The translations under genes were made by a program, and so were the position numbers. This document shows positions 26,475 through 33,715 of a stretch of 64,000 bases of DNA, one piece after another. The first letter of the stretch is position 1. Each line of letters starts with the position of its first letter. The notes under the pieces are model-generated. The model was given only the letters and a program-made list of their open reading frames with translations. It ran no database searches and was not told the DNA's origin. This stretch comes from Pedobacter sp. Leaf194 (GTDB lineage Bacteria; Bacteroidota; Bacteroidia; Sphingobacteriales; Sphingobacteriaceae), in assembly GCF_001423945.1 (NCBI RefSeq), contig NZ_LMPU01000009.1, positions 372,416 through 436,415 on the forward strand, given 5' to 3'.

Positions 26475-27683
26475 TTGAAAAGCAGCACCAATAAATTTTC
26501 TTTAATTTTAGTGTTAAGCATTTGCTTCGTACTGGTTTTTTGTGAAACGAAGGCTGCTAACTACTCCGTCGACTTTTACAACGGGACGTTTAACTTTTCA
26601 GCAGATTCATCAATTATTGTCGCTACACCCTTAAACGCAACTTCTGAAACGGTAAATAGTTTTTACAACACCATCAACGCCGGAAACTATGCCGGTTTAA
26701 CTACCGCTTTAACAGCTTATAGAGAAAAGTATAAACTGAACGACTGGATCTATTACCAGCTTATTCGAAAAACTGCTGAATTGTTAAGTCCGAAGTTGAA
26801 AAATTATAGCCAATACACCTTATACAAATGGTTTCTGTTAAACAAGTGTGGCTATGATGCCCGTTTAGCAGTTGGAAATGGGCAAATTATATTTTATGTA
26901 AAAAACGGTGAAGACATCAGTGACATTCCGTTTTTTATGGTAGATGATAATAAATATATGTGCCTTAATTACCATGATTATGGCAAACTTTTTCAACAAT
27001 CGGGTGCGTATAAACCGGTGAGGATTGCAATACCAGAGGGCGTAAATTCATTTTCATATAAAGTTACCCGAATGCCCGATTTTAAGCCGGAAACCTATTC
27101 TGAAAAGGATGTAGATTTCAGCTACAAGCATCAAACCTATCATTTCAAGTTAAAAGTTAACGATGCAGTTCAGGCAATTTTTGCTAATTATCCTGGGGTA
27201 GATTTCGAATCATATTTTAACATTCCACTCAGTCGGGAAACTTACAGTTCCTTAATTCCGATATTGAAGAACAATGTAAAAAAGCTGGATCAAAAAAAGG
27301 GTGTAGACTATTTAATGCGTTTCACCAGATATGCTTTTTTGTATGAGAATGACCAGGATAACTTCGGAAGGGAAAAACGTTTATCGCCAGAGCAAACATT
27401 ATTAACTAAATATAGCGATTGCGATGACAGGGCCGCATTATTTTTCTACCTGGTAAAAGAGATTTATAACCTGCCAATGGTGGCACTTTTATATCCAACA
27501 CACCTAAGTATGGCAGTTCAATTTGATAAACCGGTTAAAGGCGATTACTTAATTTATCAGGGCAAAAAGTATGTTTTCTGCGAACCGACACCACAATTGC
27601 AGGATTTGAAGGTTGGAGAAATAGCCACAAAACTAAAGGATGTTGAGTATAAGATTGTCTACAACTACAACCCGTCTAAATAA
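26475..27683 (+). CDS. Secreted transglutaminase-like protein
   Basis: 402 residues from a TTG start that gives a signal peptide (KFSLILVLSICFVLVFC). No in-frame ATG fits better. The C-terminal part has the transglutaminase-like triad pattern: Cys in LTKYSDCDDRAALFFYLV, His in YPTHLSMAV, and an acidic residue after it. In bacteria such domains are mostly cysteine proteases or peptide amidases, not cross-linkers. The N-terminal 250 residues are unassigned. It is probably periplasmic or surface located. Two candidate regulatory arrays lie upstream. Confidence 0.7.
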   Translation: MKSSTNKFSLILVLSICFVLVFCETKAANYSVDFYNGTFNFSADSSIIVATPLNATSETVNSFYNTINAGNYAGLTTALTAYREKYKLNDWIYYQLIRKTAELLSPKLKNYSQYTLYKWFLLNKCGYDARLAVGNGQIIFYVKNGEDISDIPFFMVDDNKYMCLNYHDYGKLFQQSGAYKPVRIAIPEGVNSFSYKVTRMPDFKPETYSEKDVDFSYKHQTYHFKLKVNDAVQAIFANYPGVDFESYFNIPLSRETYSSLIPILKNNVKKLDQKKGVDYLMRFTRYAFLYENDQDNFGREKRLSPEQTLLTKYSDCDDRAALFFYLVKEIYNLPMVALLYPTHLSMAVQFDKPVKGDYLIYQGKKYVFCEPTPQLQDLKVGEIATKLKDVEYKIVYNYNPSK

Positions 27684-27691
27684 ATTTAATA

Positions 27692-27720
27692 TTAAATTAA
27701 TGTTAAGCTAACGTTATAAA
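27692..27720 (-). promoter_or_regulatory. Phased 11-bp TTAACAT-like repeats
   Basis: On the minus strand: ATAACGT, TTAACAT, TTAATAT with 4-base spacers (11-bp period). On plus, TGTTAAGctaaCGTTATA followed by AAATC matches the element at 26181-26202. It lies between the transglutaminase-like gene and the 91-residue unknown. Confidence 0.45.
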
Positions 27721-27783
27721 ATCAACAACAAGCCCGCATTGGTATTTTTTAGGCTATTTTTATCGTTCAAAAAAAACATTCCT

Positions 27784-28059
27784 ATGCAGCCTGTAATTTA
27801 TACCGTTTTGAAAGAGTACTTCACAGAAATACATGCTCACCCAATAAAGGCCCGGATTATGTCGCCAGTAAACAAGGAAGAAGTTTTTGTGTTTCAAACA
27901 AGCTTATTCTATAAAAATTACAACAGCAGCGACCCATACGAACCATCAGCGTCATTTACGTCTTTCGCGACGGCAGAACGGCATTTGCTTCAGTACCTTG
28001 AAGAATTTCAAAGCGCTTTAGATATGGGCGGAAGCATTGCAAAGGGCTCGGGCATATAA
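27784..28059 (+). CDS. Conserved small soluble protein, unknown
   Basis: 91 residues from the ATG at 27784 (MQPVIYTVLKEYFTEIHAHP); an upstream in-frame ATG at 27739 would only add a hydrophobic stub. The protein has no membrane segment or signal. I do not recognise a family. It is flanked on both sides by phased TTAACAT-type arrays, which suggests co-regulation with its neighbours. Confidence 0.55.
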   Translation: MQPVIYTVLKEYFTEIHAHPIKARIMSPVNKEEVFVFQTSLFYKNYNSSDPYEPSASFTSFATAERHLLQYLEEFQSALDMGGSIAKGSGI

Positions 28060-28170: not shown

Positions 28171-28228
28171 TTAAATTATACTTAACATAATCATAATATT
28201 AACTTAACATCACGATATTTTATCTTTG
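28171..28228 (+). promoter_or_regulatory. Pho-type array plus -7 box upstream of the lysine-rich protein
   Basis: TTAACATaatcATAATATta then acTTAACAT: heptamers start at 28182, 28193 and 28204, an exact 11-bp period, with a fourth weaker unit (TTAAATT) at 28171. Ten bases after the last heptamer comes TATCTTTG (28221-28228), a TAnnTTTG -7 box. No -33 TTTG is present. In Escherichia coli the Pho box has heptamers at an 11-bp period and ends about 10 bp before the -10 box. Confidence 0.6.
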
Positions 28229-28247: not shown

Positions 28248-28559
28248 ATGAAAAAGAATAAATCTAAGTCGAAAAATCACTCGGCGAGTAAAAAACTGCG
28301 TAAAGAATTAGAATTGAGGCTAGCAACTGCAATTAGCGAAATTGTTAATCAATTTGGAAAAGCAAAAAAACCCGAAAAAGTTATTGAGAAATTTGCGAAA
28401 CAACTTTCCAAAAAAATCAGTATCGCCCCGGCAGAAGATTCAATAGCTTCATTTATTAAAGAAGAGCAGGTTGCTCCACTCGTAATTAAAGAAAAAGCGG
28501 TAAAACCGGTAGCCGTTAAAGTATCCGCGTCGAAAGCGAAAAAAGAGGTTTCAGAGTAA
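28248..28559 (+). CDS. Small lysine-rich protein, unknown
   Basis: 103 residues. The N-terminus is strongly basic (MKKNKSKSKNHSASKKLRKE), the middle (about 24-60) is a helical segment, and the tail is rich in Lys, Ala and Val (VKPVAVKVSASKAKK), like the C-termini of histone H1-like or granule-associated proteins. The leader is very short, about 13 nt from the predicted start site. Given the phosphate-box-like promoter, binding to DNA or polyphosphate is possible but is inference only. Confidence 0.65.
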   Translation: MKKNKSKSKNHSASKKLRKELELRLATAISEIVNQFGKAKKPEKVIEKFAKQLSKKISIAPAEDSIASFIKEEQVAPLVIKEKAVKPVAVKVSASKAKKEVSE

Positions 28560-28623: not shown

Positions 28624-30078
28624 TTATTTAACTGCTCCTGGCGTAGTATACGCTAAGCTTTGAGCATCTACTTCTGCCCAACCCGAAGCCCAGTTTTCAG
28701 CACCAAATGCACCTTTGTAAGCTACCGGAGTAAAGAAAGAACCAGAAACTTTAGCATTTGTAAAAGCAGCTCCTGTTGCAGCAGGCGACCCATTTAACAA
28801 AGTGAAATTAGCCGTACCCAATGTAGCACCAGCACCGAAATCACTATAGTATAAATATGGGTTTGTGTATATCGCTGATGCAAAAGAGGTTTGAGCGAAA
28901 ATGTTGTCAGCACGTAATTTAGCTTCGATTGCTACGGCCGCCGCTGCATTGCTAACACTAACTTCAGTGCCTTTTGTACCATAAATCAGGTTATTTGCGA
29001 TAACCATATTTCCACTTGTAAAGTTTGCTGATGTAGAATTAGCTGTTACAACCTTAGTATCATCAATATATAAGCCAATTGGGAAACCAGCAATAACCGA
29101 ATTTAAGATACTGATTGAAGAGTTACGACGAATTTGCGCACCATGGAAAAAGTTTGCGTTGAATGCACCACCAGCAGCCTTAATCGGACCAAGTACGGTT
29201 ACGTTAGAGAAAACAGCAGACGTTTTTGGCGTTTGGTCAGTTCCTGTTCCATTGTTATCAGATTCAAAACCGTTAGATTGAGATTGATCCGCAACAGTAG
29301 AAACACGCTGCGCTAAAGCAAACTGAACATTACCTGCATAACCGAAATCTGTATCGAAATCGTCATCCCATGTTCCGATAGCCAATAAGTGTTTCGCGTT
29401 AACTGTACCACCAAACCATTCGAAAGCATCATCGCCAGAGCGGTAAACCTGGATATAATCAAGTGTAGTACCGTTACCAACGCCACCCATTGTTAAACCA
29501 TTAATCTCGTTATCAACTGAATAAGCAATACCAGCATATTCAATACGAACATATTTCATCGTTCCTGAGTTATCTGCTGCATCAGTACCACCATAGTAAA
29601 TGTATAATTTCTCGTCTTTTCCTGTTGGCTGAACTAATCCACCTTCAATTTTAACGTCAGTACCTTGGTTAACCGGTGCTTTACCTAACAAGATAACGCC
29701 ACCCCAATCACCCTGGCTACGGGCGCCTGAGGCCAAAGCCGAAGTGAAAACAATCGGTTTGTCTACCGTACCTGTTGCATTAATTTTCGCACCGCGGGTT
29801 ACAATTAAAGTACCTTTTGTTGCCTTGTCGCCTTTTATAATTGTGCCTGGCTCAATTGTTAAAGTTGCGCCGTTGCTTACAAAAACAAATCCTTTTAATA
29901 AATAAATCTTACTTGCAGACCATGTTGTGTTAGCCGAAATCTCGCCGGTTACTTCAACCACACCAGTTGCCGTACCACCTGGAGTTTCTGTAGAAGGACC
30001 TTCCACAATTACATTTTTTTTACACGACGTTGAAAATAAAACTACTGATAAAGCGAGTAGTATAAATTGGTTTTTCAT
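28624..30078 (-). CDS. Right-handed beta-helix-like lipoprotein paired with a TonB receptor
   Basis: 484 residues. The lipoprotein signal ends FSTSC (Cys19). The mature chain has repeated short strands typical of beta-helix or adhesin-type proteins: GATLTIEPGTIIKG, GTLIVTRGAKINATG, and GDWGGVILLGKAPVN. Bacteroidota genomes often place this family right after a TonB-dependent receptor, as here (83-bp spacing). It is not a SusD protein. It could capture ligand at the surface for the receptor. Substrate unknown; the upstream promoter array suggests phosphate limitation as a cue. Confidence 0.75.
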   Translation of the reverse strand: MKNQFILLALSVVLFSTSCKKNVIVEGPSTETPGGTATGVVEVTGEISANTTWSASKIYLLKGFVFVSNGATLTIEPGTIIKGDKATKGTLIVTRGAKINATGTVDKPIVFTSALASGARSQGDWGGVILLGKAPVNQGTDVKIEGGLVQPTGKDEKLYIYYGGTDAADNSGTMKYVRIEYAGIAYSVDNEINGLTMGGVGNGTTLDYIQVYRSGDDAFEWFGGTVNAKHLLAIGTWDDDFDTDFGYAGNVQFALAQRVSTVADQSQSNGFESDNNGTGTDQTPKTSAVFSNVTVLGPIKAAGGAFNANFFHGAQIRRNSSISILNSVIAGFPIGLYIDDTKVVTANSTSANFTSGNMVIANNLIYGTKGTEVSVSNAAAAVAIEAKLRADNIFAQTSFASAIYTNPYLYYSDFGAGATLGTANFTLLNGSPAATGAAFTNAKVSGSFFTPVAYKGAFGAENWASGWAEVDAQSLAYTTPGAVK

Positions 30079-30161: not shown

Positions 30162-32957
30162 CTAAAAAGTATAGTTAAAAGAGAGTGATATGTTAGTGCC
30201 AGACTTGTATGATGAGAAGGTTTCATCTCCGCCGTTGCCAACGCTGCCGTTGTATTTTTTATCACCATTGTAATCAAAGTAAATTATGCTTCTTTGGTTA
30301 AGGATATCTCCGGCGTTTAGTTTAAACTCGCCTTTCGATTTTAACACTTTGTAACTTACCTGAAGGTCGATTACATCTCTCGGATTTTCCCAGGTGCTTG
30401 GAAAGTTGATACCACTTGCCTGTACAATTCTTCTACCTATTTTATTGTAAAGGATATTGAAATTAAGCTTATTATCTAAAGCACTGTGCTGTAAACCAGC
30501 ATTGATAACATATGGCGACTGGCCAACCATTGGGCGGGTTTTATCGATATAGTTTTGATCTGTAGGGTTAGTAACCTTTGATTTTATTAGCGACAGGTTA
30601 ACATAAGCAATTGTATTCTTGAACAAATTACTTTCGCCAATAAAGTTTAAGTTCTTCCTGCCTTCAAACTCTAAACCATAAGTATAAGCTTTAGGGGTAT
30701 TAAAAAACGAAACATCAGGCGTTGATAAAACATCGTAACGGTATGATTCGATCGCGTTTGTAAAATGTTTGTAGAATGCTGAAACAGAGAACAACTGACC
30801 TGCTTCCGGATAAATCTCATACCTGATGTCGGCATTATCGATTAATGAGCGTTTCAGGTTTGGGTTACCGGTTATGTTACCCAATAATTCGTAATCGTAG
30901 TAAGATGAAAGCGATAATTCCCTAAATTCTGGTCTTGCTAAAGTACGGTAATACGATGCACGCAAGTTTGCTTTTTTAGTTAAACTGTAGGTTAAGTTAA
31001 CGGAAGGCAAAACGTCAACCTGCGAATCATCAACATATGTTTTGCTAATGCTCATCACTTTTACGTTGTAACTTTCTACCCTCGCACCATACACCGCTCT
31101 GAAATTTTCTCCAAATTTCTGATCCAACATTAAGTAACCGTAATTCGTAAACGAGTTTGCTTTGTAACTATCCAGTTCGCCACCAACCTCTGCAAGTCTG
31201 TAAGCACCAGAATCAAACAACGACTGAGAAAAAATCTGATCAACAGGTAAGCTTCTGATTTGTGTTTGCAAGGCAGGGTTATTGGTAATCAATTCAGCAC
31301 CGATGAAGCGGGCAGTAAAATTACGGTCGCGGTATTGCGAACCTAAGCCAACTTTGAAAGTACTCGAAGCATCAAATAATTTAAATGGAGTACTGTAATT
31401 AACATCGCCGGCATAAATGTTTTCATTTAAATCTGAAAACAACCTCGTATTGTCTTTTCCTAACGAAGTAATGTTAGCTTGGTACAAAACACTTGGATCA
31501 TTCTGAGCCGCTAATGGTTTTGTATAATTAATTTTTAACTGATTGGGCTGGTTGTTGCTAATGTTGCTGTAAGATGCAGTCCATTTTAACTTATTATTTC
31601 CTTCCCCAATCTGATGATCTCCTTCTAAAGTTGTTTTAAAAAGCGACTTCTGCATAATATCGAAAGCATAAAAACGGTTTAATGAATTACCATCCTTTAT
31701 ACCCGTTCTTTCTGCATAGGTATCATCATAGTTTCTGTTATAAATATTCTTAAAGCTAATTTTGTTCTTTCCGAACGAATAGGCAAAGTTTGCCAAACCA
31801 CCTAAGTTTGTTGAAAACTTATATTGATTATCGAGATAGTTATACACGTAGAAATTACGTTCAACATCCTGATTTATGGTTTGTGCGTTTCTGTAAGTTG
31901 CAGATATTAACGCACCGAAAGTATTACCACTTTCGAAATGCTTTACACGCCCTAAACTTAGCTGGTAATTTTGCGTTGGCAGGGCCGACCTGTTTTTAAC
32001 ACTCAAATCATTCGGTAAAGATTCTAATGCAGCAATGCTTTTAGAGTTTGTTAATGTTCCCTTAGCCACCTGCTCGCTGCTCGGAAAGTTTTCTGCCAAT
32101 TGTTTCGAGCCATCCTCAAAACCCAAATAATTCTGGGCATTTTTCTTGGTTGCTAAAAAATCTTTAAAAGTAGATTGGCTATTGTATCCGTAGCCGACAC
32201 CAAAAGAAAGAAAGTTCTGATCGGGAATATCTTTGGTAACTATCTGAACCGCTCCACCTGCAAAATCCGCCGGAAGATCAGGCGTTGCAGTTTTGCTGAT
32301 GGTAATTTTGTCAACAAGATTAGAAGGTACAATATCGAAAGAGAATGCTTTTTTGTTTGCTTCTGTACTTGGCAAAGTCGAATTATCAAGCGTGGCAGTG
32401 TTGTAGCGGTCACTCAATCCACGAACAATTACGAATTTATTGTCTTGAATAGTTGCTCCACTAACACGTTTTAACACATCAGAAGTATTTCTATCTGGCG
32501 ACTTTTTAATCTGCTCGCTCGAAATTCCGTCAGAAATTAACGCACTGTTTTTTTGTTGTGCATATAATGTATTGATAGACTCTTGTTTAAAACTGGCTTT
32601 TACAACAACTTCACCAAGATTTTGCCCGCTGGCCTCGCTAAGGGTTACGCTAAGGTTGGTAACCGCGGGAGCTTTAACTTCGATGTCTGAGATTTCTTTG
32701 GTTTGATAACCGATGTAAGAAAATTCCAGAACATATTTGCCATTGGCCATGGCCTGAAGCGTGTATTTTCCATCAACATCTGTCGAAACACCTTTTGTAG
32801 TACCTTTAATTTTTACGGTAACACCGATTAATGTTTCACCTGTTTTATTGTCTGATACAACGCCGGAAATTTTACCGGTTTGGGCGTAAGCAGCTGCGCT
32901 TAAAAAGAAAACCAGCATTGCTAATGCTGTGCTTTTAAAAAGTTTGAGTAAGTTCAA
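30162..32957 (-). CDS. TonB-dependent receptor with carboxypeptidase-D-like domain
   Basis: 931 residues. Signal peptide (ALAMLVFFLSAAAYAQ), then a CarboxypepD_reg-like domain (about 28-112, GKISGVVSDNKTGETLIGVT), a plug domain (RGLSDRYNTATLDN) and a 22-strand-type barrel ending in Phe (LSFNYTF), the BAM recognition residue. It imports a ligand across the outer membrane using TonB energy. The pair with a beta-helix lipoprotein, not SusD, separates it from glycan systems. The promoter region carries six to seven phased 11-bp repeats. Confidence 0.9.
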   Translation of the reverse strand: MNLLKLFKSTALAMLVFFLSAAAYAQTGKISGVVSDNKTGETLIGVTVKIKGTTKGVSTDVDGKYTLQAMANGKYVLEFSYIGYQTKEISDIEVKAPAVTNLSVTLSEASGQNLGEVVVKASFKQESINTLYAQQKNSALISDGISSEQIKKSPDRNTSDVLKRVSGATIQDNKFVIVRGLSDRYNTATLDNSTLPSTEANKKAFSFDIVPSNLVDKITISKTATPDLPADFAGGAVQIVTKDIPDQNFLSFGVGYGYNSQSTFKDFLATKKNAQNYLGFEDGSKQLAENFPSSEQVAKGTLTNSKSIAALESLPNDLSVKNRSALPTQNYQLSLGRVKHFESGNTFGALISATYRNAQTINQDVERNFYVYNYLDNQYKFSTNLGGLANFAYSFGKNKISFKNIYNRNYDDTYAERTGIKDGNSLNRFYAFDIMQKSLFKTTLEGDHQIGEGNNKLKWTASYSNISNNQPNQLKINYTKPLAAQNDPSVLYQANITSLGKDNTRLFSDLNENIYAGDVNYSTPFKLFDASSTFKVGLGSQYRDRNFTARFIGAELITNNPALQTQIRSLPVDQIFSQSLFDSGAYRLAEVGGELDSYKANSFTNYGYLMLDQKFGENFRAVYGARVESYNVKVMSISKTYVDDSQVDVLPSVNLTYSLTKKANLRASYYRTLARPEFRELSLSSYYDYELLGNITGNPNLKRSLIDNADIRYEIYPEAGQLFSVSAFYKHFTNAIESYRYDVLSTPDVSFFNTPKAYTYGLEFEGRKNLNFIGESNLFKNTIAYVNLSLIKSKVTNPTDQNYIDKTRPMVGQSPYVINAGLQHSALDNKLNFNILYNKIGRRIVQASGINFPSTWENPRDVIDLQVSYKVLKSKGEFKLNAGDILNQRSIIYFDYNGDKKYNGSVGNGGDETFSSYKSGTNISLSFNYTF

Positions 32958-32979: not shown

Positions 32980-33058
32980 CAAAGCTATTACCACAATGTT
33001 AGCTCTATGTTAGATGTTAATTAAGCTTTGTTTAGCTAAAGGTTAATTTAATGTTACC
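32980..33058 (-). promoter_or_regulatory. Seven-register 11-bp array and -7 box of the TonB receptor operon
   Basis: On the minus strand TAA triplets begin at 33056, 33045, 33034, 33023, 33012, 33001 and 32990, an unbroken 11-bp period. The last two full units are identical: CTAACATagagCTAACAT. Other units read GTAACAT, TTAACCT, CTAAACA, TTAATTA. The -7 box TAGCTTTG (32980-32987) starts 8 bp after the last heptamer, and no -33 element is seen. This is the architecture of a multi-site PhoB-type activator target. Confidence 0.65.
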
Positions 33059-33068
33059 GGCTTTTGAT

Positions 33069-33584
33069 TTAGTATTTAATACCCGCCTTTTTGCAGATGA
33101 AGTGCAATAACCATATCGGTCCAATTAACAAAAACTTAATATCGTCTAAAAATGATGGTTTTTTCCCCTCAATTTTATGCCCGATAAACTGGCCAATCCA
33201 GGAAACTACAAAGATGATAAGACAAATTACCCAAACCGCGGGGCCACCCGTTTTTTGCCACTGTTCCAGCGATACAATTCCCCAACTCATTATAACGATG
33301 AGCAGTAACATCATGTAAGAGAGCACAGGCGACAAACGGTAGTAGTAATACACAGAGAAAGCAATTAAAAAAGATGCCCAGTTTACAAAGCCGTTATATT
33401 TCCCTAAAAAAGCGATATGTGGAAACGGAATTGACCAGACGAGGCCCAGCAAGCTGAAAATAATCAGCGGCACACAAATCCAATGGATAACTTCGTTTGT
33501 TTCATTATTATGGCTTTCCTGATATTTATCGAAATAAACATCTACAGGCCGTTTAATTTCAACTTTGTGGGTTTGCTTGCTCAT
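33069..33584 (-). CDS. Mpo1-like (DUF962) membrane protein
   Basis: 171 residues from MSKQTHKVEIKR; the longer frame to 33656 adds a low-quality stretch. The family motifs are SHNNETNEVIHWICVPLI near the N-terminus and SWIGQFIGHKIEGKKPSF near the C-terminus, with four membrane helices between and around them. Yeast Mpo1 is an iron(II) dioxygenase that shortens 2-hydroxy fatty acids; the motif histidines bind the metal. In Bacteroidota, 2-hydroxy acyl chains occur in sphingolipids, so a role in their turnover is plausible. Confidence 0.85.
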   Translation of the reverse strand: MSKQTHKVEIKRPVDVYFDKYQESHNNETNEVIHWICVPLIIFSLLGLVWSIPFPHIAFLGKYNGFVNWASFLIAFSVYYYYRLSPVLSYMMLLLIVIMSWGIVSLEQWQKTGGPAVWVICLIIFVVSWIGQFIGHKIEGKKPSFLDDIKFLLIGPIWLLHFICKKAGIKY

Positions 33585-33715
33585 TATGTAAAAATAAAAA
33601 AAATACTGATGTCTTCGATTTATTTTTAGCCACAGGCAAGCGGCAGCTAATTTCAATTTTTAAATGAGCTAAATAAAAAGTGACGTTACTGTTTCTAAGC
33701 GCCAAAAAATAGAAA

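Follow-up and report, generated by a model that had tools for sequence, protein, structure and literature searches.

The promoter of a gene for a TonB-dependent receptor in Pedobacter sp. Leaf194 is preceded by TAA triplets at a strict 11-bp period, and the question raised by this locus is which regulator, if any, would read them and under what conditions the downstream genes would be expressed. Regulators of the OmpR/PhoB family occupy their sites as tandem dimers, on direct repeats of 7 bp set apart by 4-bp spacers (PMC4832192). An earlier note, made from the letters of this DNA, had proposed a PhoB-type operator, and that proposal is supported by the genome scan, the family-wide conservation, the enrichment at pstS and the arrays linked to phoBR in Flavobacterium presented below. 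The array is very probably, judged from these sequence comparisons, a Pho operator for PhoB with the half-site consensus TTAACAT and an 11-bp pitch. With the operator defined as TTAACAT units at an 11-bp pitch, placed 8 bp above TAnnTTTG, the phosphate regulon would become predictable from sequence in the Bacteroidota, which matter for phosphorus cycling in soil, gut and marine habitats.

The array and the genes downstream

The stretch analysed, hereafter the window, comprises 64 kb (G000:C9:372416-436415), and the array lies on its minus strand between an Mpo1-like gene (33069-33656) and the receptor gene. Read from 33059 to 32980, the minus strand runs CG GTAACATTAAA TTAACCTTTAG CTAAACAAAGC TTAATTAACAT CTAACATAGAG CTAACATTGTG GTAATAGCTTTG. 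The earlier description is borne out in that TAA recurs seven times at an 11-bp period without a slip (33057 to 32985), identical CTAACAT heptamers lie nearest the promoter (33013-33007 and 33002-32996), a TAnnTTTG box is present 22 nt before the receptor start, and the promoter has no -33 element, there being no TTG at the -33 spacing, where the distal unit of the CTAACAT pair sits. The features considered are the following.

32996..33057, minus strand: six-unit 11-bp tandem array, GTAACAT/TTAACCT/CTAAACA/TTAATTA/CTAACAT/CTAACAT with 4-bp spacers, from the sequence and six-register conservation in two families
32996..33013, minus strand: core box, the promoter-proximal pair CTAACAT-N4-CTAACAT over the would-be -33 position, from conservation of the anchored motif
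33018..33035, minus strand: middle, weaker pair CTAAACA-N4-TTAATTA (in-register means 2.94 and 3.62 of 6)
33040..33057, minus strand: distal pair GTAACAT-N4-TTAACCT (means 4.97 and 4.94 of 6 TAACAT matches)
32980..32987, minus strand: TAGCTTTG, Bacteroidota -7 box (TAnnTTTG) overlapping the seventh TAA register, from the sequence and the fixed 8-bp spacing in anchored sites
30162..32957, minus strand: TonB-dependent receptor (CarbopepD_reg_2, Plug and TonB barrel by Pfam; relatives carry homologues under the same promoter), predicted TTG start, first gene of the putative operon
28624..30078, minus strand: second gene of the putative operon, on the same strand 83 nt past the receptor, encoding a surface lipoprotein with a homologue in the phoBR operon of Flavobacterium
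28172..28210, plus strand: second array of four registers (TAAATTATACTTAACATAATCATAATATTAACTTAACAT), then a TATCTTTG box at 28221-28228 (10-bp spacing), upstream of the ORF 28248-28559

The seven-register series is the longest 11-bp run of TAA on either strand of the 64 kb, the next being the four registers at 28172 on the plus strand, and at other periods (7-15) runs reach at most three registers, save one of four at period 12. Phasing by chance might be entertained for an intergenic region with 70% A+T. When the window was simulated 200 times with Markov models (orders 1 and 3, both strands), neither order ever gave a run of five or more registers, and the same architecture is kept in two families; chance phasing is considered refuted because the architecture is conserved, and we give it almost no credence.

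The spacing of the receptor and surface-lipoprotein genes suggests that they form one operon. Matches to the lipoprotein were found in 169 of 198 genomes of the class, the Flavobacterium limi homologue lying at G264:C25, and homologues in other families (L177, L178, L195, L185, L198) adjoin PstS-like, PhoB-like or PlcP-like genes. In two congeners (L157, L161) the promoter is almost identical and the signal peptide similar, yet the receptors are only about 33% identical to that at 30162-32957, which suggests that the receptor body has been exchanged behind a conserved promoter.

The ORF behind the second array (28248-28559) encodes a small lysine-rich protein of 103 aa, to which no family was assigned, and is transcribed towards the lipoprotein gene; in a congener (L173), the orthologue of this ORF also has a similar 11-bp array in front of it. 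A third array of three units lies in reverse orientation at 27689-27716 (minus strand) between the ORFs 26475-27683 and 27739-28059, with no minus-strand gene downstream of it.

Other sites in the Leaf194 genome

A motif scan of the genome near phosphate genes, named in the earlier note as a check on its reading, was positive; it was made by pattern searches and on selected stretches. The promoter-anchored motif TAACAT-N5-TAACAT-N8-TAnnTTTG has three exact matches in the 4.57-Mb genome, namely the array described here, C1:307579 and C13:95186. The second lies 19 nt 5' of a DUF47 (PhoU_div) gene, which is followed by a PHO4/PiT transporter gene and has a HisKA/HATPase PhoR-like kinase gene upstream, while the third precedes the gene for an 811-aa protein (beta-propeller and Phosphoesterase domain) and then a metallophosphoesterase gene. 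A PlcP-like metallophosphoesterase gene with a glycosyltransferase-like gene is preceded by a weaker, 9-bp-spaced array.

Relaxing the units to TAAYMT gave no extra exact match; with up to one mismatch allowed, five sites were found, as opposed to two for the reversed control. With loose patterns (up to three mismatches) the matches in this genome were about equal to, or only about twice, those of the reversed control, and therefore only matches with no or one mismatch were used. The one-mismatch match at C2:35732 was discounted, no long ORF being found downstream until one at 8146 in L051; C1:1434173, C1:196625 and C8:9938, near NAD kinase-like, NadB-like and giant-adhesin-like genes, are treated as unproven. 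A search of this genome for PhoU (PF01895) showed it to be absent, and PstS gives one weak match below the family cut-off; a check at pst and phoA, also suggested in the earlier note, was therefore feasible in relatives only.

Conservation in the Sphingobacteriaceae

In the family, 151 of 201 genomes (19 of 25 genera) carry an exact match to the anchored motif, at sites that share phylogeny and so are not independent, while the reversed pattern gave no match among the same 201 genomes. The downstream gene was read at 114 sites and could be called at 112. It is the DUF47 gene of a DUF47-PiT operon in 60 of these 112 and a clear homologue of the TonB receptor gene in 38, and most of the others encode phosphoesterases or related surface proteins. 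The remainder include GDPD-like phosphodiesterase, purple-acid-phosphatase-like, PlcP-like and beta-helix proteins, names given by reading the sequences without a family search. A homologue of the PhoR-like kinase gene lies upstream at 55 of 58 PiT sites.

At a few anchored sites the gene that follows has no obvious link to phosphate (ECF sigma factors in L130 and L140; L152), and the sites before the ECF sigma-factor-like genes possibly hint at a cascade from PhoB to ECF factors. The exact anchored site also precedes a family of exported proteins of about 245 aa in the genus g14 (L107, L119, L122, L123, L126), which are candidates for new members of the Pho regulon.

pstS genes and Flavobacterium

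A set of 29 pstS-like genes was drawn almost entirely from other families of the class; upstream of them, 16 pairs of TAAC at lag 11 were counted on the gene strand, against 3 on the reverse strand and 0.3 in shuffles; the count was made without the anchored motif and is independent of it. At the phoBR-linked TonB-dependent receptor (TBDT) promoters of Flavobacterium the lag-11 TAAC count is 40 against 0.5, in a comparison that covers named Flavobacterium species other than F. johnsoniae, F. limi among them. In F. limi (L202, G264) the genes stand in the order OprP-like, PhoR, PhoB, TBDT, lipoprotein, which matches the order described for the F. johnsoniae operon, and 11-bp TAAC arrays occur at the receptor promoter and at two promoters (L201, L204) read as FIII-like from their orphan context. 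On phosphate depletion of F. johnsoniae, the TBDT of the phoBR operon (Fjoh_0545) is induced with a log2FC of 8.0 and the lipoprotein FII (Fjoh_0546) with 9.9, and induction of the related FI pair and of FIII is greater still (PMC8115612).

The phased TAA could alternatively form a curved or AT-rich, UP-like promoter element that works with no specific activator, 11 bp being close to the helical pitch and the region AT-rich. We regard this as very improbable. The conservation is specific to sequence (the C of TAACAT is kept) and to strand and is limited to genes of the phosphate type, and the signal is prominent at lag 11, not at neighbouring lags, and is much weaker on the reverse strand.

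Six conserved units

When 34 TBDT promoters of the Sphingobacteriaceae were aligned on the -7 box, with the two proximal registers fixed by the search itself, the four further registers scored 3.62, 2.94, 4.97 and 4.94 of 6 TAACAT matches against about 1.7 off-register, and beyond the sixth register only background was seen. In PiT promoters only two units are conserved. Across 58 Flavobacterium-type phoBR-linked receptor/lipoprotein promoters, the registers k=0 to 5 scored 4.28, 5.45, 4.67, 3.22, 3.97 and 4.88 (the scores at k=0 and k=1 were used in choosing the alignment, of which k=2 to 5 are independent), with the flanking registers at background (k=-1, 1.38; k=6, 1.03).

Six registers bounded by background on both sides indicate that the operator is one of six units, not seven, the seventh TAA being part of the promoter box. 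The sequence of this register (GTAATAG, 32991-32985) shares bases with the -7 box and is unconserved in the PiT and Flavobacterium promoters. The earlier count of six or seven units thus stands as to the seven TAA registers, and the conserved operator units number six, not seven. An array of six units fits three tandem PhoB-dimer boxes.

Several features expected of a Pho box are found here. The units, each of about 7 bp, are directly repeated at an 11-bp pitch with 4 bp between them; they adjoin the promoter in place of its upstream hexamer, with a fixed 8-bp gap to TAnnTTTG and a TAACAT unit at -33; and they stand before genes of phosphate acquisition, namely the DUF47-PiT and phosphoesterase operons in this genome and pstS in other families.

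Candidate PhoB and PhoR

A PhoB/PhoR pair appears to be encoded in the Leaf194 genome, by similarity to the adjacent phoB and phoR of Flavobacterium. The regulator L053 (G000:C3:32801) shares 57-58% identity with the PhoB genes that adjoin the lipoprotein or receptor gene in L195 and Flavobacterium (L202), whereas the seven others of the eight full-length OmpR-type regulators compared are at most 37% identical to them. Against the NCBIfam PhoB equivalog TIGR02154 it scores 227 bits, the best among the regulators of the genome and below the cut-off of 296.2, and is therefore described as a putative PhoB orthologue by similarity and synteny rather than as a member of TIGR02154. This orphan regulator is the probable PhoB of Leaf194. 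Over 339 aa, the kinase L049, whose gene lies upstream of DUF47-PiT on C1, shares 46% identity with the kinase encoded in phoBR of Flavobacterium. The genes for L053 and L049 lie apart in the Leaf194 genome and neither has an adjoining partner gene, so that their pairing is inferred.

A different OmpR-family regulator might act on the array, or the receptor might be under ECF/FecR-type control, the association with phosphate genes then being indirect. Direct repeats are common to all OmpR/PhoB-family regulators (PMC4832192), the genome encodes at least eight full-length OmpR-type regulators, and ECF sigma genes follow some anchored sites. Against this, the sites concentrate at PiT/DUF47, pstS, phosphoesterase and PlcP-like genes, phoB itself is adjoined by the same array in Flavobacterium, and L053 alone is close to the PhoB genes compared above. 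We consider such control unlikely, though less so than the curved element, and retain PhoB as the regulator.

Proposed mechanism and significance

In cells starved of phosphate, the PhoR-like kinase encoded immediately 5' of DUF47-PiT (G000:C1) would phosphorylate the PhoB orthologue, and the phosphorylated protein would bind the array head-to-tail as tandem dimers stacked along a single face of the DNA, the last of them 8 bp above TAnnTTTG. There it may stand in for the missing -33 contact and recruit RNA polymerase, whereupon the TonB receptor and surface-lipoprotein genes would be transcribed. The extra distal units probably increase cooperativity and promoter strength relative to the two-unit PiT promoters; binding of M. 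tuberculosis PhoP is tighter to rows of three and four motifs than to two (PMC4832192). The binding of PhoB, the phosphate control of the receptor operon and the role of unit number are thus proposed here from the comparisons above.

A broader proposal, to which we give slightly less than even weight, is that a single Pho operator is common to the Bacteroidia and that its output rises in steps with how many units it has, two serving housekeeping uptake (PiT) and a fixed length of six, or three dimers, serving massively induced receptor/surface-lipoprotein operons through an extended head-to-tail row of PhoB. If this were true, the motif would define a Pho regulon across the class, genes of unknown function included. 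At the present locus the Pho operator itself would tie an uncharacterised TonB receptor and surface lipoprotein to phosphate scavenging.

Comparison with known systems

Within the same phylum, PhoB of Bacteroides fragilis (BF1576) has been shown to bind the pst promoter, on a fragment of 512 bp only, and has both pst and a phosphate permease under its control, and in the portion of that report available to us no PhoB binding motif was found (PMC3547664). The work on phosphate starvation in F. johnsoniae makes no mention of a Pho box (PMC8115612), and no mapped PhoB recognition sequence of the Bacteroidota was found in the open-access literature, most subscription journals and preprints lying outside the search. 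Pho boxes as such are already known; the TTAACAT consensus, the array fixed at six units and its setting in a Bacteroidota promoter are undescribed in the open-access literature searched.

The Pho boxes of Escherichia coli are pairs of 11-nt units, with several boxes in tandem at some promoters such as ugp (PMC4415409). The E. coli box (PhoB; CTGTCAT-W4-CTGTCAT; pstS, phoA, ugpB) shares with the present array the 7-bp direct repeats, the 4-bp spacers, the missing upstream hexamer and the types of target, phosphate uptake and phosphatases. The present array differs in having TTAACAT for CTGTCAT, the E. coli-type heptamer not being found, a Bacteroidota TAnnTTTG promoter and six half-sites, and in belonging to a genome with neither PhoU nor a PstS match above the family cut-off. 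The PhoP box of Bacillus subtilis consists of TTAACA-type repeats, so that its core hexamer is nearly identical to the array unit and the 11-bp pitch is shared; it belongs to another phylum and promoter type, and orthology of the regulators is not established by the tests made here. PhoP of Mycobacterium tuberculosis is, to our knowledge, not a phosphate regulator. More than two 11-bp units also occur in the M. tuberculosis PhoP rows and in the simple and complex PhoP operators of Streptomyces coelicolor, which are built of GTTCACC direct repeats (PMC4415409, PMC4832192), and the S. coelicolor unit is GC-rich, unlike TTAACAT.
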